A DNA stretch of 10,374 nucleotides from Candidatus Atribacteria bacterium 1244-E10-H5-B2 (GTDB lineage: Bacteria > Atribacterota > JS1 > SB-45 > 34-128). The notes beneath the pieces were generated by a model. It had not been told where the DNA came from. It searched no databases and was given only the letters and a program-made list of their open reading frames with translations. Positions within the stretch are counted from its first letter, which is position 1. Every line of letters starts with the position of its first letter. The DNA is taken from assembly GCA_003575245.1 (NCBI GenBank), contig NMQN01000355.1, forward strand, positions 1 to 10,374, in the 5' to 3' direction. A program made the position numbers and the translations under genes. Shown here one piece after another: positions 1 to 10,374 of the stretch.

Positions 1-1157
1 AATTCTATTAGGTATTTTTCAACTGTTTCCTCGATATCAATCCTATGGGTCTTAGTGGGGATCCAACACTTATGGAAAGCCAAAATAACCTTATCACCCT
101 CCCTATATACCCCGACAACGCTTGAGCTATCGTGAGCGTAACCGATATCGATCCCTACACTCAATCGACCCTGAAAGCCTGGTAAGATAGGTCGCAAGTT
201 ATTATCGATACAAGCGTCCCACATCTCCGGAGATACAAAGGCACTTTCACTTGAAGTCCACCTATTTTCATGGAGCCTGAGATAGGTATTCGGTCTCAAC
301 CGTCCCCTCTGGCTGTCCAGGTATTTTTTAGTTACCCAACTTGCCAGGTTTTTATGAGACCAAATAAAAAACATTGCCTTATCTGTCCTGGCCAATCCCT
401 TTTTATAGAGGTCAAACAGCAGACTTTCCTCATCAAATCCTGCATAGCTGACGACCAAACTTAAAGGATTTTTACGGGTCGGTACTTCGCAAAGTTCGTC
501 CCAAAACTTACGGCTACTGTCTAGTTCCATGGCCCAAATTTCGTCCCAGACCGTTAGTGAAGGATTACTACCTGATGCTGTCCGGTAATTCGGGGCTACA
601 ATCCTACAAACTGTCCCGGTTTTTTTGACCTCGATTACATCCTCATACAATCTAACCTCTTTTAGCTGTTTGGGGTTCATTTGCAGGCTCTTTTTTAGCT
701 TATTGAATATAATCCAGGAAGATTGTTCTTTACTATTTGCAGTCAAAATTATCTCTCCAAAATCGCAATCCTGGAACATAAAATAATTTGCTACCATGCT
801 GGCCATTGTACTTTTAGAATTTTTCTTGGGGAGTCCGATAATCGCTAGGGAAAATTTCCTTAGTCCATCCTCATTAAGACTGAATAAGGGCATGAATATC
901 CTCTTTTTCTGCCAGTCCTCGAGTACCACCGGGGCCTTTGTTTCGATAATATAATACTGATCCTGAAGATATTTCACAATATCATTTTTATAAACAGAGC
1001 CAAAAGGGTTATACTCGGCCTCTTTCTCTGTTTCGATACTTCGTTTATTTTTGCTCTGTTCGCTTCCTTTTATCCCGCCTTCTACTTGCCGGGCTTTCGC
1101 CTCAGGAGTATTGGCCCGAAAACTTTCTTTTGATCTCTTTTTTTTATTTTTAGCCAT
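1..1157 (-). CDS. terL: Phage terminase large subunit, 3' end cut by the window edge
   Basis: This is the ATP-driven motor and nuclease that cuts concatemeric phage DNA and packages it into proheads. I translated the minus strand from ATG at 1157-1155 and found 385 open codons with no stop before the window edge. The ATPase half shows a Walker A variant GLPKKNSKST (residues 108-117), a Walker B-type SLTVWDE with D205/E206, and a coupling-type motif SYAG (237-240). The nuclease half begins with GIDIGYAHDSS, whose D337 and D343 fit the acidic metal ligands of the RNase H fold. The order and spacing fit the Terminase_1 (HK97-type) family. About the last 100-150 residues are probably missing. The start is preceded by a GAGAGGTG ribosome binding site and lies 3 bases after the stop of the 51-residue gene, so the two are probably translationally coupled. 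The first 40 residues are Lys/Arg rich. Confidence 0.93.
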   Translation of the reverse strand, partial: MAKNKKKRSKESFRANTPEAKARQVEGGIKGSEQSKNKRSIETEKEAEYNPFGSVYKNDIVKYLQDQYYIIETKAPVVLEDWQKKRIFMPLFSLNEDGLRKFSLAIIGLPKKNSKSTMASMVANYFMFQDCDFGEIILTANSKEQSSWIIFNKLKKSLQMNPKQLKEVRLYEDVIEVKKTGTVCRIVAPNYRTASGSNPSLTVWDEIWAMELDSSRKFWDELCEVPTRKNPLSLVVSYAGFDEESLLFDLYKKGLARTDKAMFFIWSHKNLASWVTKKYLDSQRGRLRPNTYLRLHENRWTSSESAFVSPEMWDACIDNNLRPILPGFQGRLSVGIDIGYAHDSSSVVGVYREGDKVILAFHKCWIPTKTHRIDIEETVEKYLIE

Positions 1158-1160
1158 ATA

Positions 1161-1316
1161 TTATTCACCTCTCACTTTGAATTTTTTATTCTTTTGCTTC
1201 TTTTTCTTTCTGCCTGATCTTCCGTCATATTCTGCTTTCTTCTTCAGCAGCTTTTCTTCTCTCTTCTCTTTCTCAAAAAAGGCATTTATAACTTTTAAAC
1301 TCTGCCAATCTCCCAT
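1161..1316 (-). CDS. Small basic protein (51 aa) upstream of terminase
   Basis: An ATG at 1316-1314 follows an AAGGAG site at good spacing and opens 51 codons ending in TAA at 1163-1161, 3 bases before terL. The product starts MGDWQSLKVINAFF and is then almost entirely charged, with runs of Lys and Arg through the C-terminal half. It is likely disordered or helical and nucleic-acid binding. I do not recognise a family. Its place directly before terL is where a small terminase subunit often sits, but it is far shorter than known TerS proteins. Coupling to terL suggests a packaging-related role (inference). Confidence 0.7.
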   Translation of the reverse strand: MGDWQSLKVINAFFEKEKREEKLLKKKAEYDGRSGRKKKKQKNKKFKVRGE

Positions 1317-1341
1317 TTCATTCACTCCTTAATGTTAAGTT

Positions 1342-1752
1342 TTATAACTTAGCTTTAAGCAATTCTTTTGCTCTTATTTCTCCCCTATTTGTTAATTTTA
1401 TTATCTTCACTTTAGTTTTTCCCTTCATTGAAAAAACAGTTATTACTCTTTCTCTCGTTGGATCTACTCCACGCTTTAAGCAATCATTTTCAAAATCTTT
1501 TATGCTTTTACCTTTTTTGTTATAAAGTCTAGCCATATCACTTAATTTCATTAGAGATAATCCTGTAATAAATCCTCTCCCAACCAAACTCCAGATTGAC
1601 CGAGATAAAACTACCTCATTAGTTGGTGTTCTCCTCTCAAAAAATCCAGTACGTCTGCCAATTATGTCTCGTCTGGCAATTACTCTGTTTGGTGATTTTA
1701 AGCAAGCCGTCAAGATCCACTTCTGCAATTTAGAAAATCTTTTTTTTGACAC
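1342..1752 (-). CDS. Winged-helix-like basic protein (136 aa)
   Basis: The GTG start at 1752 has an AGGGG site about 6 bases upstream. The product is basic, with an N-terminal segment (residues 5-30, FSKLQKWILTACLKSPNRVI) that looks like the first helices of a winged helix domain. The following segment, roughly 44-65, includes VLSRSIWSLVGRGFITGLS. The C-terminal VKIIKLTNRGEIRAKELL (118-134) resembles the strand-plus-helix end of such folds. That points to a DNA-binding protein. It ends 25 bases before the 51-residue gene and is the first gene of the packaging module, just downstream of a strong terminator. It could be a small-terminase analogue or a late-gene regulator. The fold call is by eye and the function is unknown. 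Confidence 0.7.
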   Translation of the reverse strand: MSKKRFSKLQKWILTACLKSPNRVIARRDIIGRRTGFFERRTPTNEVVLSRSIWSLVGRGFITGLSLMKLSDMARLYNKKGKSIKDFENDCLKRGVDPTRERVITVFSMKGKTKVKIIKLTNRGEIRAKELLKAKL

Positions 1753-1775
1753 TTTAACCCCTTTTCTTTTGTTTT

Positions 1776-1829
1776 AAAAAAAATAGCCGGATCTAAAAGA
1801 GTTAAAAACTCTTATACAAATCCGGCTAT
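1776..1829 (-). terminator. Intrinsic terminator for leftward transcription
   Basis: A 10-bp perfect outer stem (ATAGCCGGAT at 1783-1792 with ATCCGGCTAT at 1820-1829) encloses a 7-bp inner stem (AAGAGTT 1797-1803 with AACTCTT 1807-1813). Read on the minus strand the hairpin is followed at once by eight Ts (1783-1776). It lies between the cargo genes and the packaging genes, so it should stop transcripts from the amidohydrolase side. The packaging genes must then be read from another promoter, from read-through or by antitermination. Confidence 0.85.
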
Positions 1830-2025
1830 CTTGTAGCTCTTATTTATTCAATTTTTAGAAATTGACTTGCCTCCCCCCTATTTTTTTAGTAGGATTTAAA
1901 ATATCACCCCAAAAAAGGAGGCAAATCTACCCTATGGAAAACTTAACAGTAACCATAAAATTAACCAACCTTAAATTAAATATACCAGAAGTAGACTGAA
2001 CCCCTCAGTCTAGACACTTTAAGTC
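1830..2025. other. Intergenic region with two small hairpins, no convincing gene
   Basis: It holds a perfect 7-bp stem with a 4-base loop (TCAATTT at 1848-1854 with AAATTGA at 1859-1865) and an 8-bp stem with a 5-base loop (TAGACTGA 1992-1999 with TCAGTCTA 2005-2012). An 8-bp inverted pair, TTGCCTCC and GGAGGCAA, flanks the tract between about 1867 and 1924. On the plus strand a GGAGG at 1917-1921 lies 12 bases before an ATG (1934) that opens 21 codons (MENLTVTIKLTNLKLNIPEVD, stop 1997-1999). The spacing is long, the orientation opposes every neighbour and no promoter is clear, so I do not call it a gene. Confidence 0.45.
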
Positions 2026-2213
2026 TTAACACACCATGCATTCCCGAGAGCTATTCTTTGCCAGTAGTCTCTCGTATTCCTCAATCTTCTACCGGGAGGC
2101 CTTGTTCTCTTAACTGAGTGTCCGTTTTATCGGGGAAAGACCAGTTTTCTGCTGTTCCCGGTTTGAGATACTCCCTAAAATCTTCTGACATCGCATGAAA
2201 TGTTTTTTGCAAT
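2026..2213 (-). pseudogene. Frameshifted remnant of an unidentified gene
   Basis: Directly after the amidohydrolase stop the minus strand keeps a protein-like reading frame: from an ATG at 2191, MSEDFREYLKPGTAENW and on to REQGLPVED, with TGA at 2083-2081. In a second frame the text continues naturally as IEEYERLLAKNSSRECMVC with TAA at 2028-2026. The two halves join well if about two bases were lost near 2085. The ATG at 2191 has no ribosome binding site. It looks like the 3' end of a gene truncated at its 5' side and then frameshifted. I do not recognise the family. It may mark the edge of an insertion of the cassette. Confidence 0.4.
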
Positions 2214-3410
2214 TTATAGAGGAACTTCTTTTGCCAGCCAGTCAACAGCACCCTGAGCGAGGAGAGTTGTTCCTTTCCAGAAGACATCTTCGTCAACGTC
2301 GAATTTAGAATTGTGATGCGGGGCAACTATACCTTTAGCTTCATTGCCTCCTCCCAGGAAAAAGAAAGTACCAGGTGCTTTTTCCAGGAAATAGGCCATA
2401 TCCTCACCGCCCATAGTGGGTCTGGCGATTTCCACAACATTTTCTTTTCCGACAACTTTTTTTGCAGTTTCCGCAAACCCTTTGGTAAATTCCGCATCAT
2501 TTACGAGAGGGGGGTAACCATAGGTGTATGTAAATTCATAATCCCCCCGCATGCCTTTTGTAACATTGGCAACAATCTCTTCCATACGGCTAGCTATTTT
2601 TTCCCGCACTGCCTGGCTAATTGCCCTGGCTGTCCCTATTATTTCAACGGAATCAGGAATGATATTATAGGATCTGCCACCATTAATTTGGCCTATTGTT
2701 ATTACCGCAGGTTCAGTAGGTTTTATTTCCCGACTGATAATGGTTTGCAGAGCATTAATTATCTCTGCAGAAATGACAATAGGGTCTACCCCTGTATCAG
2801 GCATAGCGCCGTGACAGCCTTTTCCGATTACTTTAATTTCAAACCTGTCAAGGCAGGCCATTAAGTTGCCATAGGCCACACCCACTTCCCCGGTACCGAT
2901 TTCTTTAAAAATGATTCCTATATGCAGACCCAATACTGCATCTACCTTGGGGTTTTCCATAGCACCATCATCAATCATGGGTTTTGCTCCGCCCGGGCCT
3001 TCCTCACCAGCCTGGAAAATGAGTTTAATGTTGCCTTTTAGCTTGTCTTTGTTTTCGTTTAATATTTTTGCAGCTCCCAAAAGCATAGCGGTATGAGCAT
3101 CATGGCCGCAGGCATGCATATTCCCATTTGTGGAAGCAAAGGGAAGCCCTGTCTCTTCCACAATAGCCAGGCCATCCATATCTGCCCTGATAGCAATAGT
3201 TTTACCATCTTCTTTACCTTTAATCAAACCGACAATCCCGGAAACTCCAATATTTTCCTGATACTCGATACCCATTTCTGAAAGTTTTTCAGCAACGTAA
3301 GCAGAGGTCTTGGGCAACTCTAAGCCCACTTCAGGTATTTGATGCAGGTCTCTGCGCCAGGAAATAAGCTGATCCTGCATTTTTTGTGCTGCTTCAACAG
3401 TGTTAAACAA
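2214..3410 (-). CDS. M20D-family amidohydrolase (N-acyl amino acid / hippurate hydrolase type)
   Basis: This is a cytoplasmic metal-dependent hydrolase that cleaves the amide bond of N-acylated or N-aroylated amino acids or related conjugates. The 398 residues match the usual family length. Visible features are RADMDG (75-80), the HACGHDAHT metal motif (99-107, ligands C101 and H103), GEEGPGG (136-141, with the general-base and metal Glu pair), GLHIG with H163, the dimerisation/lid domain from about 185 to 295 including the H200 region, PTMGGEDMAYFL (331-342) and PHHNSKFD (364-371). The start is TTG at 3410, chosen because AAGGAGGG lies 7 bases before it and the family alignment begins there. 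It follows two membrane-protein genes on the same strand, which suggests uptake followed by hydrolysis. The substrate cannot be read from the sequence. Confidence 0.93.
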   Translation of the reverse strand: MFNTVEAAQKMQDQLISWRRDLHQIPEVGLELPKTSAYVAEKLSEMGIEYQENIGVSGIVGLIKGKEDGKTIAIRADMDGLAIVEETGLPFASTNGNMHACGHDAHTAMLLGAAKILNENKDKLKGNIKLIFQAGEEGPGGAKPMIDDGAMENPKVDAVLGLHIGIIFKEIGTGEVGVAYGNLMACLDRFEIKVIGKGCHGAMPDTGVDPIVISAEIINALQTIISREIKPTEPAVITIGQINGGRSYNIIPDSVEIIGTARAISQAVREKIASRMEEIVANVTKGMRGDYEFTYTYGYPPLVNDAEFTKGFAETAKKVVGKENVVEIARPTMGGEDMAYFLEKAPGTFFFLGGGNEAKGIVAPHHNSKFDVDEDVFWKGTTLLAQGAVDWLAKEVPL

Positions 3411-3485
3411 TTTAAAACCCTCCTTTATAATTATAATTAAACTCCTGTTGCTCGTAAAATTTTAACCTGAAAAAAAGTAATGAAG

Positions 3486-3531
3486 TCATTTGGATCTCAA
3501 GACTTTTTAAAATGTCTTGAGATCCAAATGA
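3486..3531 (-). repeat. Perfect 18-bp inverted repeat between membrane protein and amidohydrolase genes
   Basis: TCATTTGGATCTCAAGAC (3486-3503) is perfectly complementary to GTCTTGAGATCCAAATGA (3514-3531), with a 10-base AT-only loop. On the minus strand a run of seven Ts follows only about 10 bases after the stem. It is therefore not a textbook terminator, but it could reduce read-through or stabilise the 3' end of the transporter message, lowering amidohydrolase expression relative to the transporter. A possible separate promoter for the amidohydrolase (TTTACG, 17 bases, TATAAT) lies just downstream, but it would place the start of transcription at the ribosome binding site, so I rate it weak. 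Confidence 0.65.
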
Positions 3532-3545
3532 TAATACCAAAAAAT

Positions 3546-4226
3546 CTATGCTGCAATTTTAGGGTTTTTTGTACTACTATTAAACAAAAGTTTTGCTATC
3601 CCAATAGTTCCAAACACAGATGCAACAATTAACGCCCATACAGGCAGGGAGGTAAAGAGCCTTAAGCCTACCGGGATAATAAATCCTACAACAGCAAGTT
3701 TCGGATATTTAATAGCGAACTGACCAAACACCGCGCCGAAGATAGCCGGAACGGTATATGTTCTAAAGGCGTCAGCGATTATAGGTGGGAAAATCCTAAT
3801 TAAAATGGTCCCGATGAAAGCCGCTAAAGTTACGCCTATAAGATTTGTGATAACTGAGCCGGCGATGCCTAAAGTTGATACGATTTCAGCTTCTTTTGTC
3901 CCGGGCTCGGTATTTGTTACATCAAGAGCCATGGCAGCGCAGGGCAGCCGGAGATTGGAAATGTTCCCCGATAAGAAAGACATATACGTTCCTGCGAGAC
4001 CCAGAACGGCATAATAAGACACTGGTTCGACGATATAAAAGGCTCCGAATAAGAGAGCAATCATCCCCCAGGATTTTAGCATTAAAGATACAGACGGAAT
4101 AATGCCATGAACAAAGTACAGATACAGAACCGGCAGGAAAGAAAGAGCGGAAGCCATGAGTAGCGTAATCATGCCTATCTTCATTACAGGGGCTTTCCAG
4201 TCTTTTTCCATATTAAAATTTGACAT
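3546..4226 (-). CDS. Polytopic membrane protein, probable partner of the DUF5058 protein
   Basis: The 226 residues contain about six hydrophobic segments, near 16-40, 45-66, 70-88, 115-145, 155-172 and 176-212. A conserved-looking loop, NISNLRLPCAAMALDVTN (about 88-105), sits between the third and fourth, and the C-terminus is short and polar. The ATG at 4226 has AGGAGGTGA ideally placed. The gene starts 21 bases after the DUF5058 stop, so the two are co-transcribed. Two small membrane proteins of nearly equal size next to a hydrolase suggest a two-component transporter (inference). I know no characterised homologue and assign no substrate. Confidence 0.85.
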   Translation of the reverse strand: MSNFNMEKDWKAPVMKIGMITLLMASALSFLPVLYLYFVHGIIPSVSLMLKSWGMIALLFGAFYIVEPVSYYAVLGLAGTYMSFLSGNISNLRLPCAAMALDVTNTEPGTKEAEIVSTLGIAGSVITNLIGVTLAAFIGTILIRIFPPIIADAFRTYTVPAIFGAVFGQFAIKYPKLAVVGFIIPVGLRLFTSLPVWALIVASVFGTIGIAKLLFNSSTKNPKIAA

Positions 4227-4247
4227 AATGTCACCTCCTATTTTTTA

Positions 4248-4958
4248 TTAACCTATTATACTAACAAGAACAGCAGCAAACATACCAATTAGCATGGCAA
4301 TCCCCAGAGAATATTCCTTCAGGGCCGGAAGTTTTTTAATGACAAACCTAATTATGACTATCATCGATAAGCCACCCACAACGACAGCCACTAACCTGGA
4401 TCCACCGGATACCACGTCTCCGGAATTAAGATAGCCGAAAACCCCCAGCATGGCTGCACCGCTTAACATTGCCAACCATTTGACGTTCCCGCCGCCGATT
4501 ATATCTCTTAGAGAATCCAGTTTGTGACTGAATAACCCGACTAGGAGCAACCAGCCCACACCGTTAATAGCCATAGTCCACCATGAGGTTGCTAAGGCCA
4601 TCAAATTATAATCCGGGGAACCAAATTGGAACCCCGCAGCTTCTGAACCTACCCTGGCCGCTGTTAACTCAGTGGGTGCAGCACCGATAATTGCTAATCT
4701 CATCCAGCTCATAGGTCCGCCGATAACAGACATCATTCCCACCATAATGATAAAAATAGCGATAGCTGGGCCAATTGCAGTAACCATACCAGTTCTAAAA
4801 GCAATGTTACAAGTTTCCTTTGATAGACCAATTCCGGTGGCAGTGGTACGGGCAAGCTTATAATACATAATAGACTGAACAGCAACCAGGCAAACAAGTA
4901 TTGCAGCAATAATCCAAACACCAAAACTATTTGCAACTCTTAAAACCTCTTCTGACAT
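4248..4958 (-). CDS. DUF5058-family integral membrane protein
   Basis: The family is recognised from ANSFGVWIIAA near the N-terminus and the signature around GGPMSWMRLAIIGAAPTE followed by an Ala/Gly-rich stretch (about residues 80-110). Hydrophobic segments fall near 9-32, 52-80, 118-145, 160-180, 185-207 and 212-236. I place the start at ATG 4958 (236 aa) rather than the in-frame ATG at 4973. The GGAGGTG ribosome binding site lies inside those extra five codons, 6 bases before the 4958 ATG. DUF5058 proteins are uncharacterised membrane proteins mostly of Clostridia. The linkage to a partner membrane protein and an M20D hydrolase points to import of an acylated amino acid or peptide-like compound (inference). 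Confidence 0.88.
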   Translation of the reverse strand: MSEEVLRVANSFGVWIIAAILVCLVAVQSIMYYKLARTTATGIGLSKETCNIAFRTGMVTAIGPAIAIFIIMVGMMSVIGGPMSWMRLAIIGAAPTELTAARVGSEAAGFQFGSPDYNLMALATSWWTMAINGVGWLLLVGLFSHKLDSLRDIIGGGNVKWLAMLSGAAMLGVFGYLNSGDVVSGGSRLVAVVVGGLSMIVIIRFVIKKLPALKEYSLGIAMLIGMFAAVLVSIIG

Positions 4959-5174
4959 AATTAACACCTCCATTTTTTGTTTTTTCAGTACAAAGCATCA
5001 ATCCAATTATTTTTATTATTTTTAATATCACCTCCAATCATTCCTTATTTTGTGCCTTTCAGAAAACTTTGAAACCCTTGTCTTGCAAGGCTTTTAGAGT
5101 ACCTCTATTTTATTCTTCACCTCCTGTCTTTTTCATAATAGTTTTCTATCTTAATTATAATATCTCAAATAGCA
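4959..5174 (-). promoter_or_regulatory. Leader between XRE gene and transporter operon, with orphan ribosome binding sites
   Basis: On the minus strand a TATAAT at 5159-5154 could serve as a -10, but no good -35 is found at 16-18 bases. Two strong Shine-Dalgarno sequences follow, AGGAGGTGA (5125-5117) and GGAGGTGA (5035-5028), neither with a normal start codon nearby. After the second, an unusual ATT would open a 13-residue frame. After the first, the fragment LKALQDKGFKVF is readable behind a stop codon, which looks like decayed coding sequence. Either broken leader peptides or the scar of an insertion would explain this. Regulation by the neighbouring XRE protein is possible, but no clear operator is seen. 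Confidence 0.4.
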
Positions 5175-5429
5175 TTATTTGTCTTTCTTCTCTATCTTTT
5201 CCTCTAACTCCTTCCTTCTTGCTTTATAAAATTGATGCAGTTCCTTATTTAAAGTTTCCGGACTGATGCCCAGAATTTTACTAATCTTTTTAATATGGAT
5301 CTCGGAGGGGGTGAGTCCCCCAGTCTCAAAGTGAGAAATATACATCTGAGAAATTCCTACCATGAGAGCCAGATCCACCTGGGTTAACCCCTTCTTTCCT
5401 CTCCTCTTTTTAATCGGATTGGTTATCAC
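5175..5429 (-). CDS. XRE-family helix-turn-helix regulator (84 aa)
   Basis: A compact DNA-binding protein. Residues about 12-62 form a typical HTH_3 domain, with LTQVDLALMVGISQMYISHFE (15-35) as the helix-turn-helix and KISKILGISPETL closing it. The C-terminal 20 residues are a highly charged helix (KARRKELEEKIEKKDK). The start is GTG at 5429 with AGGAGG about 11 bases upstream; no ATG is available. It is read from the strong promoter at 5615-5642 through a structured leader, and it sits directly upstream of the transporter/hydrolase genes. It could be the local regulator of that cargo or a phage repressor. No divergent cro-like gene is present. Confidence 0.88.
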   Translation of the reverse strand: MITNPIKKRRGKKGLTQVDLALMVGISQMYISHFETGGLTPSEIHIKKISKILGISPETLNKELHQFYKARRKELEEKIEKKDK

Positions 5430-5455
5430 TTTTTCTCTCGCCTCCTAATAAAGAA

Positions 5456-5482
5456 GGCCTGACTTCTGACAGAAGCCAAGCC
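5456..5482. terminator. Terminator-like hairpin in the XRE leader
   Basis: GGCCTGACTTCTG (5456-5468) pairs with CAGAAGCCAAGCC (5470-5482), allowing G-U pairs. The flanking AAGG/CCTT bases extend it. On the minus strand a T-rich stretch (TTCTTTATT) follows, then the XRE ribosome binding site. On the plus strand TTATTGTTTTTT follows. It may end the short leftward RNA from the 5615-5642 promoter, acting as an attenuator for the XRE gene, or work in both directions. Confidence 0.5.
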
Positions 5483-5487
5483 CCTTA

Positions 5488-5515
5488 TTGTTTTTTATCC
5501 TTTATGTGATATAAT
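5488..5515 (+). promoter_or_regulatory. Candidate rightward promoter
   Basis: TTGTTT (5488-5493), a 16-base spacer and TATAAT (5510-5515) make a plausible sigma-A promoter on the plus strand. It opposes all genes around it and would start transcription near 5522, reading into the hairpin-forming segment 5522-5596. Confidence 0.45.
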
Positions 5516-5521
5516 AAATCA

Positions 5522-5608
5522 GGAGCCAAGAGAAAACCATAAGGACTTAGGCTCTGTTTCGGGTCCGCTTATCTCGGTCTAGTGATAATAGCGGGCTCGT
5601 TCCTTCTT
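5522..5608 (+). ncRNA. Candidate small structured RNA, plus strand
   Basis: Downstream of the rightward promoter, two stems can form in plus-strand RNA. GAGCCAAG (5523-5530) pairs with CTTAGGCTC (about 5546-5554) with one bulge. GGGTCCGCTTATC (5561-5573) pairs with the segment 5584-5598 ending GCGGGCTC. The second stem uses G-U pairs that work only on the plus strand, which favours a rightward RNA. A T-rich stretch follows. There is no coding frame with a ribosome binding site. The 3' end and existence of the transcript are unproven. Confidence 0.3.
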
Positions 5609-5614
5609 ATTTTT

Positions 5615-5642
5615 ATTATACTTATTTTTAGAAGGATGTCAA
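5615..5642 (-). promoter_or_regulatory. Consensus sigma-A promoter reading leftward to the XRE gene
   Basis: TTGACA (5642-5637), a 16-base spacer and TATAAT (5620-5615) match the consensus exactly on the minus strand. The -10 is flanked by two copies of AAAAATAAG, and CCTTCT/AGAAGG arms lie on either side. Transcription should start near 5608, giving a leader of about 180 bases before the XRE start. It lies 29 bases past the stop of the 41-residue zinc ribbon gene. It is the strongest promoter seen in the window. Confidence 0.8.
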
Positions 5643-5670
5643 ACCCTTTCTTAACTTCCACCGAGCCACC

Positions 5671-5796
5671 TCACTTCACTCTGCTTTTAGCAGTCTCATT
5701 TGCCGGCACTAACTTGCTACCGCAAACCCTGCAAATCCCTTTTACTCCCCAACCGAAAAAGTGTCTACCGCAATTTTGGCATTTAAATTCTGGCAT
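5671..5796 (-). CDS. 41-residue zinc ribbon protein
   Basis: ATG at 5796-5794 is preceded by AAAGGAG at 6-7 bases and opens 41 codons ending TGA at 5673-5671. The protein has two CxxC knuckles (C6/C9 and C22/C25), with basic and aromatic residues between them and a short polar tail. This is a minimal zinc ribbon, usually a nucleic-acid or protein-binding module. It lies 35 bases after the other zinc ribbon gene in the same direction. Function unknown, but the four cysteines and the ribosome binding site make it a convincing gene. Confidence 0.82.
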   Translation of the reverse strand: MPEFKCQNCGRHFFGWGVKGICRVCGSKLVPANETAKSRVK

Positions 5797-6638: not shown

Positions 6639-6731
6639 TTAATTACCCCCTTTCTTTTCTTTCCTGATTGAGCAAATTATTATCCCTAAAACTACTAAAA
6701 ACGTTATAAGCGGATACCAATACGAATACAT
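6639..6731 (-). CDS. 30-residue membrane peptide
   Basis: Two adjacent ATGs occur (6734 and 6731) after AAGGAGG. The second gives 7-base spacing, so I use it. The product, MYSYWYPLITFLVVLGIIIC then SIRKEKKGGN, is a single aromatic-started membrane helix with a basic tail. The upstream region carries a copy of the duplicated leader element also found before the acyl carrier protein gene, which supports real expression. Function unknown. Confidence 0.65.
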   Translation of the reverse strand: MYSYWYPLITFLVVLGIIICSIRKEKKGGN

Positions 6732-6738
6732 CATTTAA

Positions 6739-6783
6739 CCTCCTTTCTTATTTAATAACTCGTTCAGAATACCCTTAGAAACG
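6739..6783 (-). repeat. Leader element, copy B
   Basis: The bases just upstream of and including the ribosome binding site of the 30-residue peptide gene closely resemble those before the acyl carrier protein gene (7248-7292). They share an identical 11-base core GGGTATTCTGA (6774-6764 here) followed by a similar TTATT-AATAA stretch and the Shine-Dalgarno. It may be a shared promoter, operator or translation-control element. Confidence 0.5.
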
Positions 6784-6797
6784 ATTTTAAACCCCTT

Positions 6798-6986
6798 CTA
6801 AGCGTCAATAAATTTTTTATGCTTCCCTTCTTCCTCGGCTTTCTCTTTCCTTTCAATAAATCCCTCAATAAGACCTAAAGCACTTAAATATTTATCTCTT
6901 TCTTTTTCCGTCAGTCCTTCCTTCTCCAATTCCGCCTTATAGAAAGCCCTGGTTTCTTCTAAAGCCTTTAGCTTTATTGGCATCAT
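6798..6986 (-). CDS. Charged helical protein (62 aa)
   Basis: A 62-residue product, almost entirely Lys/Glu-rich helix (KLKALEETRAFYKAELEKEG, then LTEKERDKYLSALGLIEGFI), probably two helices forming a hairpin or dimeric coiled coil. It starts 24 bases after the acyl carrier protein stop. The ribosome binding site (AAGGGA, about 12 bases from the ATG) is weak, so translation may depend on coupling. No family recognised. Adjacency leaves open that it interacts with the acyl carrier protein. Confidence 0.65.
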   Translation of the reverse strand: MMPIKLKALEETRAFYKAELEKEGLTEKERDKYLSALGLIEGFIERKEKAEEEGKHKKFIDA

Positions 6987-7010: not shown

Positions 7011-7235
7011 TTATTTATCTAAGTATTTAATCGCATCTCCGACAGTCTTAATTTTTTCCATATCTTCATCCGGAATTTCTATATTGAATTCTTCTTCAAA
7101 AAGCATTATTAGTTCAACTATATCTAAAGAATCTAAACCCAGATCATCAATAAAAGAAGAATTTTCGGTAATTTTGCTTTCAACAACTCCTAATCGATCT
7201 ACGAGTATCTTTTTTATTTTGTCCCTGGATTCCAT
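7011..7235 (-). CDS. acpP: Acyl carrier protein
   Basis: A 74-residue acidic four-helix carrier protein that holds acyl chains on a phosphopantetheine arm. The hallmark [20 protein letters not shown] (residues 31-50) contains the attachment serine S36, followed by the acidic helix II and III pattern and the closing [10 protein letters not shown]. Length and motif are those of stand-alone bacterial AcpP or closely related carrier proteins. ATG at 7235 follows a GGTGG-type site. No fatty-acid or polyketide enzyme and no holo-ACP synthase is nearby; the neighbours are small phage-type genes, so it would rely on host enzymes for activation. The gene symbol denotes family; it may be a specialised carrier rather than the housekeeping one. 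Confidence 0.93.
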
Positions 7236-7516
7236 TCTATTCTTTCACCACCTTTTATTATTGAATAAACTGCTCAGAATACCCCTAAAATAGAGCCCCT
7301 GATAGCTTTGTTAGCGTTTCTCTGACCGCTATGGTATGGATCTATCCACCCCTTTTTAGTTTTAAAGCCTGAAGATAGCTCAAAGTTATGAGAAATAAGG
7401 CAGAATCGTTGATTTAGCTAAAATAAAACGCCCAAATATCGCTTTTAAGCCCCCTCAATTATCGAATAGGTATAAAGACAAGCGAAATATTGATATTTTC
7501 GCTAAAAACTTGCAAC
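7236..7516 (-). promoter_or_regulatory. Intergenic leader between recombinase and acyl carrier protein genes
   Basis: No gene is seen in these 281 bases. Just after the recombinase stop lies a 7-bp inverted repeat, AGCGAAA (7481-7487) with TTTCGCT (7497-7503), AT-rich in the loop; it could be a weak terminator or a recombinase-related site. TAGCG and CGCTA arms form a small stem around 7310-7330. The last 45 bases (7248-7292) are copy A of the duplicated leader element. I find no promoter that matches consensus well. Confidence 0.4.
7248..7292 (-). repeat. Leader element, copy A
   Basis: The counterpart of the element at 6739-6783, located directly before the acyl carrier protein gene. The core GGGTATTCTGA (7284-7274) is identical and is followed by a similar AT-rich segment running into the ribosome binding site (AAAGGTGG here, AAAGGAGG there). 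Two independent copies at equivalent positions suggest function or gene-start duplication. Confidence 0.5.
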
Positions 7517-8095
7517 TTAAATGCAGATCTCCCTCTCCAGCCGGTTAACCTCTTCCCTGGTGATCCCGATATATCTTTTAGTTACCTCTTCATTCTTATG
7601 GCCCAGCTTCTCTCGTATCATCGTAATCGAGGCTCCCTGCAACCTGGCCTGGTAGCCCCAGGTCTTTCTTAAAGAATGAAAACCGTATCTCTCGCTATCT
7701 AAACCGACCTCATCGGTCCACTTCCTAATAAGCTTCCAGACCCTTACCCTGCTTATCGCCCGGCTCCTATTTCTGAACGAATAAAATAGAAAATCGTTAG
7801 GGTCAAGCCCCTTTTCCTTCGTAAGATAAAAGTTTAAGGCCGTCCTGATCGGCTCATTAAGGTAAATCTTAGCTTCTCTCTTTGTCTTTGATTCTTTAAC
7901 GAAAAGATATTCCTTAATCTCTCCGGTGCCATTAATAAGGTCTTTAACCCTTAACTGCAGTAAATCGATCCCCCTTAGAGCACTGTTGATCCCTAAGACG
8001 AATAAAAGGTAGTTCCGGGGGCTCTCTTCCTCCCTTAAATTGTTTTTAATAGCCAGTATCTTGGTTTTTGCCCGGATAGGCTCCACAAAATTCAT
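7517..8095 (-). CDS. Short tyrosine recombinase / phage integrase (192 aa)
   Basis: A site-specific DNA recombinase of the XerC/phage integrase class, acting through a covalent tyrosine-DNA intermediate. The catalytic set is visible: R41 (SALRGIDLLQL), K70 or K72 in the beta-hairpin (SKTKR), H140 and R143 (HSLRKT), H166 (LGHKN) and nucleophile Y175 (TKRYIG). At 192 residues it holds the catalytic domain only and lacks the usual N-terminal arm and core-binding domains; MNFVEPIRAKTKILAIK is the start typical of this short Firmicutes phage group. ATG at 8095 follows GGGAGG. Such short enzymes may work in integration or in resolving phage genomes. A likely promoter lies at 8132-8160 and a possible att site upstream. 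Confidence 0.92.
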   Translation of the reverse strand: MNFVEPIRAKTKILAIKNNLREEESPRNYLLFVLGINSALRGIDLLQLRVKDLINGTGEIKEYLFVKESKTKREAKIYLNEPIRTALNFYLTKEKGLDPNDFLFYSFRNRSRAISRVRVWKLIRKWTDEVGLDSERYGFHSLRKTWGYQARLQGASITMIREKLGHKNEEVTKRYIGITREEVNRLEREICI

Positions 8096-8378: not shown

Positions 8379-9281
8379 TTAGGTTGTTGTTAAAATTACC
8401 TCCCTACTATCAATTACCTCCCTACTATCAACAATTACCTCTTTGCCCCATACCTCCCAACCCTCAATTCTTTCTGTCCCAAATAGTTCTATACGTGGCA
8501 AATCACCTACTAGTTGCACTATCTTTTTTCGCACTATAGCCGGTTTCCTGCTATGCTCCTCTCGAGGTGTATATACTATCTGAGATATAGTGGCATCTTT
8601 CCTTTCTACGTTCCCTTTAAGCCCTATTAAACAATATTCTGCATTTGCCCTGGTCCAGCTGCCACAACCAAAGGCAAATCCAGTTTCATCTCTTAGACTT
8701 TTGACCCATACAAAGCCAAAACACGAATAATGAAAATCCCAGGCCTTAATAACTTGTAAGGCATCCTGGATATTAAATGAGGTTGTCCATAAAAATAAAA
8801 TACAATTATCTGCTGCTATCTCTGAAATGGGTAAGGCATAAATATCAAATACCTCCATCGTGTCATAATGTTGTTCGGGGCCCCGGTTACCGCTTTCCCA
8901 CTGTTCCCAGGGGGGGTCTGCTAGGATAATACTGTATTTGCCTTCCGGTAGCGGTGGTGTTTCTGGTTTTGGTCTTGGCAGATATAAATATTTATGTACA
9001 ATCTGGCGCCAACTCAATTTTCTGACGGCGTCAGAAATTTCGGGAAATTTTTGGGCAAATGTTTTACAGGCGTATAAATCACCGCTACTAACATCTAAAT
9101 CCTTTGCTAGATTTTCAATTCGTTTTTTCCCATATTCTGGCTTCCCGAACTTCAATTCATCTTTTAGGATCCTTAAACCGATAGCGTGTTTCGTTTTAAT
9201 GATTCCTTCGAAGGCTAATTTTTTTAGATCAAAAACTAATTCTTTATACCAATCGTTTATCTCTATTAGATTTTTTGCCAT
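8379..9281 (-). CDS. MT-A70 family adenine DNA methyltransferase with DUF1016-like N-terminus
   Basis: An N6-adenine methyltransferase acting on DNA with S-adenosylmethionine. Numbering from the chosen ATG (9281, 300 aa), residues about 1-100 are helical and resemble the N-terminal domain of DUF1016/YhcG proteins (IGLRILKDELKFGKPEYGKK, later LSWRQIVHKYLYLP). The catalytic DPPW is at 122-125 (ILADPPWEQWESGN), followed by LFLWTT, GFVWVK, the WTRANAEYCLIGLKG segment and EEHSRKPAIVRKKIVQL; the end is FGTERIEGWEVWGKE. I prefer ATG 9281 over the TTG at 9323 because the latter has no close ribosome binding site, while GAGG lies about 10 bases before 9281. Phages often carry orphan methyltransferases to evade restriction. 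The C-terminus is extended by an 18-bp tandem repeat. Confidence 0.9.
   Translation of the reverse strand: MAKNLIEINDWYKELVFDLKKLAFEGIIKTKHAIGLRILKDELKFGKPEYGKKRIENLAKDLDVSSGDLYACKTFAQKFPEISDAVRKLSWRQIVHKYLYLPRPKPETPPLPEGKYSIILADPPWEQWESGNRGPEQHYDTMEVFDIYALPISEIAADNCILFLWTTSFNIQDALQVIKAWDFHYSCFGFVWVKSLRDETGFAFGCGSWTRANAEYCLIGLKGNVERKDATISQIVYTPREEHSRKPAIVRKKIVQLVGDLPRIELFGTERIEGWEVWGKEVIVDSREVIDSREVILTTT
8394..8429 (-). repeat. 18-bp in-frame tandem repeat at the methyltransferase C-terminus
   Basis: AATTACCTCCCTACTATC occurs twice in perfect tandem (8394-8411, 8412-8429), with a partial third copy from 8433. On the coding strand it encodes the repeated DSREVI near the protein end. The unit also contains GGGAGGTAATT, a strong Shine-Dalgarno-like string, so it could mimic ribosome binding sites. 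Recent slippage or duplication is the simplest origin. Confidence 0.85.
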
Positions 9282-9586
9282 CCTAAAAATTCCTCTTTTC
9301 CAAATTTTACCTAAACTAAACAAAAAACTTTTGTTCGCCCCCGAATCCTCTTTTTCTATATTTACTATCCTCTTAATTCTTTTTATTCCTAATATTTACC
9401 TGTGAGAAGATTCTAAGATATCAGGGTATTAAGGGCTAAGACCAGAGAGGAAACAACTAAGATAGTATATTATTACCCCTTCCTGCTTCTGTAACCCTTA
9501 TAAAATATAGAAATTATCCCTTAAAAACTGGAGGGTTTTTGTGATTATAAAAATTATCCCTTAAAAACTGAAGGGTTTTTGTGATT
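9282..9586. other. Intergenic region before the methyltransferase gene
   Basis: I see no gene with a ribosome binding site on either strand. It contains the 40-bp tandem repeat at 9511-9590, a loose dyad GGTATTAAGGGCTAAGACC near 9424-9442 and AT-rich sequence. A weak minus-strand promoter-like pair (TTGTTT with TAATAC about 19 bases on) may drive the methyltransferase gene. Confidence 0.4.
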
Positions 9587-9590
9587 TTAG
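9511..9590. repeat. Two tandem copies of a 40-bp unit forming terminator-like hairpins
   Basis: Positions 9511-9550 and 9551-9590 match at 37 of 40 bases. Each contains CCCTT, an 8-base loop and (A/G)AGGG followed by TTTTTG on the plus strand; on the minus strand the stem is followed by an AT-rich but weaker T tract. The second copy overlaps the stop codon of the replication gene. They may be duplicated terminators or iteron-like sites beside the replication gene. Confidence 0.75.
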
Positions 9591-10374
9591 TTATAAAAAG
9601 ATTTGTCTATAATCCCCTTTTCCTTCAATACCTTAATTGCATTTTTAACAGTATCGAAATTCATTTTAGTCTCTTCTGCTATCTTATTCATTGAAGGATA
9701 TTCACCTTCGTAATAAGTTCCTAATAGTAAAGCAATCCTACTTTCTGTATTACTTAACCCTAATAACTTCCTTATGTTCTTAATTAATATATTAGCCACT
9801 CCTAAAACACCTCCTTTAAATCGATACTTACACTTAGAGCATTCGATATAAGGTAAAGTTTCCCTTATCGTAGAGCATTTGAAACGATATCTCTTCCTAA
9901 AAATCTTCTTCAATTCTTGATCAGTAAGAGGTTTCACCAATGAATTATTTTTAAGGATAGCAATTTTTTTAGCGTGATCCAGCCTATTTTTATTCTGCAA
10001 TAGCAAATTATATAAAATAAATAAACTGCTATCCCTTTCCCCTTTATTCCCTTTTTCCCCTGCCTTCAATTCTTTGCCTAATATCTGCTTTAAGCAATAA
10101 CGATCTTGACCATTATAACGAGGGAAAGATAAAGCCCTTCTTTTCTTATATTCCACTTCTACGCCGGGAGCCTGGCCACCTTCTTTTATCCCTGTTTCTA
10201 TTCCTGGTAAAGCCACTTCTAAGTGTCTAATTATCTTTTCAGGTGAGGGTAAAATCTTCGATAAGGGAATTACAAAATGATAGGTAAAATTATCTATCTT
10301 TGAAGGGGGAGCTACTACATAATTGCCATTAGCCTTTAATTCAATTCCCAAGCCAAAGAGGTTTTTCGTTGACT
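9587..10374 (-). CDS. Prim-Pol-like phage replication protein, 5' end outside the window
   Basis: The frame is open to the right edge (261 codons visible). The first visible residues, STKNLFGLGIELKANGNYVVAPPSK, match the end of bifunctional primase/polymerase (Prim-Pol) domains, where GI(D/E)-x-GxYVVAPPS is characteristic. The YHFV segment and the region up to about residue 75 continue that domain. Next comes a basic linker, a segment with CSTIRETLPYIECSKCKYRF (possible metal-binding cysteines) and a C-terminal winged helix-turn-helix (SMNKIAEETKMNFDTVKNAIKVLKEKG). An apparent TTG start at 10351 is internal to the domain, so the true start is upstream. The protein probably primes phage DNA replication; the missing N-terminus should hold the catalytic acidic motif. 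Confidence 0.75.
   Translation of the reverse strand, partial: STKNLFGLGIELKANGNYVVAPPSKIDNFTYHFVIPLSKILPSPEKIIRHLEVALPGIETGIKEGGQAPGVEVEYKKRRALSFPRYNGQDRYCLKQILGKELKAGEKGNKGERDSSLFILYNLLLQNKNRLDHAKKIAILKNNSLVKPLTDQELKKIFRKRYRFKCSTIRETLPYIECSKCKYRFKGGVLGVANILIKNIRKLLGLSNTESRIALLLGTYYEGEYPSMNKIAEETKMNFDTVKNAIKVLKEKGIIDKSFYN

Follow-up and report, generated by a model that had tools for sequence, protein, structure and literature searches.

We analyzed a stretch of 10,374 bp from Candidatus Atribacteria bacterium 1244-E10-H5-B2 (contig NMQN01000355.1; hereafter the window), which is cut at both ends, with the ends of the element it comes from lying outside view. It carries a cassette of three genes, encoding a DUF5058 membrane protein, a second membrane protein that we call the partner, and an M20D amidohydrolase. 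Every gene identified in the window is on the minus strand. Read in that direction, genes for a replication-type protein, an MT-A70 methyltransferase, a short tyrosine recombinase, an acyl carrier protein, small proteins and an XRE-type regulator precede the trio, which is followed by a 136-residue gene and a large terminase gene cut by the contig end. A sequence-only reading of this DNA had placed the trio on one strand between a recombinase, small-gene and XRE block and terminase genes; this layout stands, with one recognised terminase gene rather than several. The cassette features are:

4248..4958, minus strand: DUF5058 membrane protein, proposed permease subunit A (PF16481, 5.7e-65)
3546..4226, minus strand: partner membrane protein, proposed permease subunit B
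3486..3531, minus strand: hairpin with a 23-bp inverted repeat in the gap between partner and M20D
2214..3410, minus strand: M20D amidohydrolase, TTG start with GGAGGG ahead (TIGR01891; aligned to 1ysj and 1xmb)
2081..2191, minus strand: 36-residue reading frame just behind M20D, a possible remnant at the insertion border

The three open reading frames (ORFs) of the cassette are intact and have good ribosome-binding sites. The DUF5058 frame is open from an ATG at 4973, and we placed its likely start at the ATG at 4958, as the sequence-only reading did, because GGAGGTG lies ahead of it. DUF5058 matches PF16481 over 222 of 222 positions (219.5 bits against a gathering score of 28.2) and no other Pfam family, hence no transporter family there. 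The partner matched no family in Pfam, PHROG or NCBIfam, and 46 of its homologues gave weak Pfam matches only (best E 0.0021, in a single member). In AlphaFold models DUF5058 is all helical, with a predicted local distance difference test score (pLDDT) of 87, and the partner reaches a pLDDT of 76. We rejected the idea that the two proteins are duplicated halves, as no homology between them was detectable (hhalign probability 0.8%). The third protein scores 369.1 bits against TIGR01891 (cut-off 153.75), matches Peptidase_M20 and M20_dimer in Pfam, and aligns near full length to the structures 1ysj, 1xmb and 6slf, with metal motifs in common. Its conserved motifs hold Cys101, His103, Glu136/137, His163 and His365/366, which we take to be the ligands of a two-metal site. 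Compared with the nearest named relative, from a Dethiobacter sp. (L006), the cassette genes show a nonsynonymous divergence (dN) of 0.11–0.13 with saturated synonymous divergence (dS), which indicates selected genes and not chance ORFs. The hairpin between partner and M20D has an unlike counterpart at the same position in L006 and was not clear in seven other loci that were folded; no homologue was found for the 36-residue frame.

In the genomes sampled, the two membrane proteins form an obligate pair. The partner has 769 homologues at E ≤ 1e-3, and a genome scan confirmed 93 relatives, from which 80 loci were kept with record titles spanning Bacillota, Synergistaceae, Halanaerobiales, Spirochaetaceae and others. 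The partner lies directly downstream of DUF5058, on the same strand and after a gap of 34–208 bp, for 65 of 65 DUF5058 genes in 39 genomes, which were chosen via the partner and so leave 26 pairs beyond one per genome. In a sample of the phylum, ten of 149 genomes had a DUF5058 match above the cut-off, and the partner occurred in the identical ten, adjacent in all of them (three were already among the 39); an eleventh DUF5058 match fell below the cut-off and had no partner. A sample of the Dethiobacter relative's class contained DUF5058 in 19 of 97 genomes, and the 12 loci fetched from it comprised 11 members of a divergent subfamily (22–27% identical) and the Dethiobacter copy.

We combined the 80 loci from the scan with seven from the phylum sample into a set of 87, in which the pair is present at 86 (L042 stops at a contig edge). 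A hydrolase is nearly always alongside: 50 of the 87 loci encode an M20D enzyme (identity at least 35%) on the same strand within 1 kb, and 31 more encode another M20 enzyme on the same strand within 1.5 kb, giving 81 of 87 altogether. At one locus the M20 match is on the opposite strand, and four have none. Among these four, the contig of L008 ends 348 bp behind the pair, the pair adjoins an M42 peptidase gene in L165 and an Amidohydro_1 enzyme gene in L170, and we have no explanation for L058. On a distant branch (clade L066–L085) two dissimilar M20 enzymes often come after the pair, and behind them a protein of about 430 residues (cluster c5), of which the tested member matches no Pfam family.

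The co-occurrence that the sequence-only reading had proposed to count is thus borne out for the pair and its hydrolase, without a recurrent phage context, the pair being found in no other viral contig among those scanned. The trio is also plasmid-borne in the haloarchaeal Haloterrigena and in Paracoccus, and all genome and plasmid relatives whose flanks were read lie in non-phage surroundings. We therefore rejected a phage-specific system: by its distribution, the trio is a widespread bacterial operon. In a Vibrio diabolicus plasmid (L001:5965-6696) the pair lies amid insertion-sequence and transposase genes; a stop codon interrupts the DUF5058 frame, and the record has no annotation at this place.

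Part of this family is linked to glycine, a connection absent from the sequence-only reading. The cassette proteins are 80, 86 and 82% identical to those of L006. In that locus a glycine riboswitch precedes DUF5058, and behind the trio come a gene for a carbamoylase-like M20 enzyme, another glycine riboswitch, gcvT, gcvH and two genes for P-proteins. We built a covariance model from the aptamers of L006 and L007; run on the 87 loci (1.3 Mb), it gave 11 matches at E ≤ 1 in eight of them (L006, L007, L022, L029, L031, L034, L046 and L053), L006 and L007 matching by construction; the Rfam glycine riboswitch model (RF00504) scored above its gathering score in each of the eight. DUF5058 directly follows the riboswitch in L006, L007 (Clostridium acetireducens), L031 and L034, and in L029 the riboswitch is followed by an AGCS symporter gene (PF01235) and then the trio. 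Behind the trio, it leads a GCV_T-domain gene in L046 and glycine reductase genes in L022 (PF09338 and PF07355) and L053 (tblastn relatives). With tblastn, glycine reductase genes were recognised in the flanks of L034, L059 and L170 as well, and AGCS-like genes in those of L008, L032 and L059; these counts come without a background rate. Any glycine feature occurs at 12 of the 87 loci, and none was found at the other 75.

Across the 39 genomes, 32 carry a glycine riboswitch somewhere and six have one adjoining a pair. Of 55 riboswitch elements, at least seven have a pair on their own strand no more than 3 kb away, against 0.13 expected under uniform placement (55 elements, 65 pairs, 111 Mb); the comparison is rough because uniform placement takes no account of the position of riboswitches ahead of genes and because 4 of 85 aptamer matches were below the cut-off. 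The window belongs to this part of the family: its partner is closest to P0001 (94%), and the two group with the Dethiobacter copy in the tree (FastTree local support 1.0). In a survey of glycine riboswitch regulons (PMC3766115), the targets act in the metabolism of glycine or of serine or are glycine transporters (three orthologues), and a target such as the pair would fit these classes. As judged from gene neighbourhoods, glycine fits a part of the family that includes the window's clade.

We then considered what carries the cassette. The remaining features of the window are:

9587..10351, minus strand: replication-type protein (weak Prim-Pol, HTH_36), frame open to the window's end
8379..9323, minus strand: MT-A70 adenine methyltransferase (PF05063, 1.9e-26; phrog_359)
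7517..8095, minus strand: short tyrosine recombinase, 192 residues (PF00589, 3.3e-21; phrog_216)
7011..7235, minus strand: acyl carrier protein with DSL serine motif (PF00550; phrog_5934, moron category; NF002151 above cut-off)
6798..6986, minus strand: 62-residue protein (partial matches in L087 and L089 between recombinase and TerL)
5175..5429, minus strand: XRE-type regulator, the final recognised gene ahead of the cassette (PF01381, 2.4e-15)
1342..1752, minus strand: 136-residue gene on the phage side, no known family (Pfam, PHROG)
3..1157, minus strand: large terminase (TerL), cut by the window end (PF03354, 4.1e-14; phrog_9, 6e-45)

Apart from the acyl carrier protein, the phage-side proteins had no match in any of 85 loci, which also counted against a phage-specific system. 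A single-sequence pattern scan of viral contigs returned 67 IMG/VR loci for the recombinase and no relatives for TerL. The TerL scan missed terminases 76 and 81% identical, so single-sequence scans can overlook relatives. A TerL alignment scan gave 14 loci, three of them already in our set, and 11 of the 14 contigs measure 7.7–13.3 kb. Four of the 67 recombinase loci (L086–L089) are contigs of 7.7–8.5 kb with direct terminal repeats of 54–125 bp, which makes them probably circular. The TerL proteins of L088 and L089 are 76% and 80% identical to that of the window, and both contigs also encode a phage capsid protein (PF05065 in L088). The five non-overlapping ORFs of at least 60 residues in L088 encode TerL, an HTH/excisionase-like protein, capsid, primase and recombinase, with no portal or tail gene among them; L154, unlike L088, encodes a tape-measure gene.

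L087 and L089 carry the order recombinase, 62-residue gene, TerL, which is the order of the window minus the cassette. This colinearity suggests that both flanks of the cassette come from one kind of small element, within which the trio, on this comparison, occupies a variable stretch between recombinase and terminase. Because small circular relatives keep a colinear recombinase and terminase without the trio, it looks like inserted cargo, in a single contig. The phage cargo claimed by the sequence-only reading thus holds as an operon-like unit inside a phage-type element, and not as a phage system. That reading had also named a sign against cargo, namely closely related strains with the trio at the same host locus and no flanking phage genes; the trio of L006 lies at its gcv locus with no phage gene seen, which falls short of that case as worded.

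The guanine-plus-cytosine content is 43–44% in the cassette genes, 29–33% in the replication, acyl carrier protein and 136-residue genes, 39% in the MT-A70 and XRE genes, 42% in TerL and 44% in the recombinase; these values overlap across the window and so leave the origin undecided. A tRNA scan of the window found none, so there is no tRNA-linked attachment (att) site in it, and the direct repeats of 1100-5700 are short and diverged, with no att-like repeat among them. A transposon-borne cassette was rejected, with no clear terminal repeats and no transposase among the window proteins scanned.

Further observations concern the element and its relatives. The ten contigs L086–L089, L154–L157, L159 and L161 (7.7–12 kb, with terminal direct repeats and a TerL or recombinase of the window's families) resemble minimal elements or satellites that encode a capsid. 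In L158 the terminase and its neighbours are present in two copies about 6.36 kb apart, and the terminal repeat measures 98 bp, as would suit a head-to-tail concatemer of a very small element. Within the window, the acyl carrier protein (7011-7235, DSL motif intact) shares its element with an N-acyl amino acid hydrolase. Two similar leader-like stretches, 7240-7290 and 6720-6780, with the pattern GGGTATTCTGA...TTATT...AATAA, lie ahead of the acyl carrier protein gene and a small gene, and L089 near 1649-1694 resembles one of them. Intact lone M20D genes, 45% identical, occur in two phage contigs (L119:7861-9054 and L150:7932-9125), some 0.9 kb upstream of a short recombinase like that of the window, followed by HNH and terminase/packaging genes; most of these flanking genes were named by eye, and Pfam was run on the L119 copy of M20D. 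Neither contig had a match to DUF5058 or the partner.

Together these results suggest the following scheme, to which we give an even chance as a whole: a phage-like element captured a whole nutrient-scavenging operon, in which the pair imports and M20D cuts N-blocked amino acids, in the window's clade glycine conjugates. DUF5058 and the partner would form a two-subunit membrane permease that imports N-blocked amino acids or small peptides, in this clade probably N-acyl-, N-carbamoyl- or peptidyl-glycine or similar conjugates. The cytosolic M20D enzyme, a zinc amidohydrolase by family and metal motifs, would cut the imported substrate inside the cell, and the freed glycine could feed the glycine cleavage system or glycine reductase of the host, whose genes are linked to the trio in relatives. 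The uptake and hydrolysis proposed in the sequence-only reading fit an obligate membrane pair with an M20-type hydrolase nearly always alongside, whereas we found no evidence for its other idea, an acylated signal. The operon of the window, which lacks the riboswitch of its relatives and so, if working, works outside riboswitch control, may be expressed from phage promoters or its own. The host cell, and through it the element, would profit.

Several observations weigh against this scheme. Neither pattern scans, which are not fully sensitive, nor an alignment scan found a relative of DUF5058 or the partner in 2.9 million viral contigs, so that without a second viral contig carrying the pair its status as cargo rests on one contig. 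In the class of the nearest named relative, seven of 97 genomes have terminase relatives, all of them weak (23–30%). Two plasmids, from Vibrio (L001) and Paenarthrobacter (L004), carry the pair, and the stretches read from them gave no M20D match. Fold searches with both subunits gave no clear transporter match and listed only weak ones, MATE, presenilin and G-protein-coupled receptor rows among them, on which we do not draw. The window gave no glycine riboswitch match, either with Rfam (E up to 1) or with our model (E up to 5), and 79 of the 87 loci have none, so glycine cannot be a family-wide substrate; PucR regulators in 25 of the 87 flanks and carbamoylase-like M20 genes in 15 point to other substrates elsewhere. 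Among phage records, a GenBank "Bacteriophage sp." entry with the pair (MT836200) was judged bacterial contamination because genes read by eye as a MATE pump, peptidases, a TetR-type regulator, an epimerase and NAD synthetase lie alongside. Three further "Bacteriophage sp." records have a partner match only, and 45 phage records have an M20D match, 23 of the 25 among the matches listed being without annotation there. The PHROG family phrog_36725 matches DUF5058 and may derive from contaminated records of this kind.

The rival readings divide these observations differently. The same operon and carriage could involve a general permease for dipeptides or N-acyl/N-carbamoyl amino acids whose specificity follows the neighbouring hydrolase, a possibility that we take seriously without favouring it. 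The variety of neighbouring enzymes (M20D, other M20, M42, Amidohydro_1), the PucR and carbamoylase-like flanks, and the best NCBIfam match of the window enzyme, carboxypeptidase CpsA (NF040868; 424.1 bits, below the equivalog cut-off of 500), would all suit such a permease; the window's clade, however, includes the riboswitch-controlled L006 and L007, and the L006 locus continues into gcv genes. Another rival takes the pair for an exporter of a toxic acylated product, or for membrane proteins that regulate the peptidase or act as its scaffold; we hold it unlikely. Sequence comparison ties neither subunit to a solved transporter, and fold comparison does not do so clearly. Uptake is nevertheless the best fit for a pair of short polytopic proteins that keep a fixed order next to an M20-type hydrolase and that, in L029, follow the gene of an amino-acid symporter, a single riboswitch preceding both.

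Other doubts concern the contig. An assembler might have joined a Dethiobacter-like host operon to phage sequence, as the viral scans and the weak terminase relatives in the Dethiobacter-relative class would allow. Two wrong joins would then be needed, each at an intergenic border of one operon, and the trio shares the strand of the phage side; since the borders fall between genes of an element whose halves are otherwise colinear with L087 and L089, such a double misassembly is improbable. We consider it still less probable that the trio is a piece of host DNA lying at the edge of a prophage or separating two phage remnants: the lack of att-like repeats and the cut window ends leave room for this, yet the order of recombinase, 62-residue gene and TerL matches that of single small circular elements. 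The capture of a scavenging operon by a phage-like element remains our preferred reading.

A search of 5.39 million literature texts returned no paper naming "DUF5058" or "PF16481", so we saw no published function, and searches for related operons gave no description of this trio among the matches listed. A testable role thereby emerges for a bacterial and archaeal protein domain that Pfam lists without a function: it would belong to an obligate pair of membrane genes tied to M20-type hydrolases, and glycine offers a concrete substrate class to start from. By record titles, carriers include Clostridia, Synergistota and gut Lachnospiraceae, and their occurrence in gut and sediment bears on the use of acylated amino acids by anaerobes. 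The phage case suggests that an entire uptake-plus-hydrolysis pathway can travel on a very small element. A broader reading, which we regard as doubtful, is that the pair represents an unrecognised class of two-subunit importers for M20-type substrates, that some branches scavenge glycine conjugates under riboswitch control, and that a minimal element with terminase and capsid genes took up the entire pathway and freed it from that control. If so, the glycine would feed cleavage and Stickland glycine reduction, and a cell bearing the element would scavenge regardless of its glycine state.

The proposed system shares features with known ones. The AbgT permease acts with the M20D hydrolases AbgA and AbgB on p-aminobenzoyl-glutamate, and AbgT is one polypeptide of another family. 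As proposed here, a permease supplies an N-acyl amino acid to M20D (3io1 is among the structure matches of our enzyme), whereas DUF5058 matches PF16481 alone and the partner no Pfam family. YxeP (1ysj), ILL2 (1xmb) and the N-alpha-acyl-glutamine aminoacylase 6slf are the near full-length matches of the hydrolase noted above, and we know of no membrane pair that accompanies any of them. The lone M20D genes of L119 and L150 resemble the window in lying near a short recombinase in a phage contig and differ from it in lacking the pair. For the carrier, cfPICI are capsid-encoding phage satellites. Like these and the Streptomyces satellites of PMC10690885, L086–L089 are small elements with their own packaging and capsid genes; they are near 8 kb, and the likeness is one of genes. 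A published parallel is a C. difficile operon with a lysine riboswitch, the yfcC antiporter gene and an M20D putative amidohydrolase gene (PMC11477304). It differs in its single-protein transporter YfcC, in responding to lysine rather than glycine and in being chromosomal, and it combines an amino-acid riboswitch, a transporter gene and M20D in an apparent operon, as the riboswitch-bearing relatives of the window would if the pair is a transporter.

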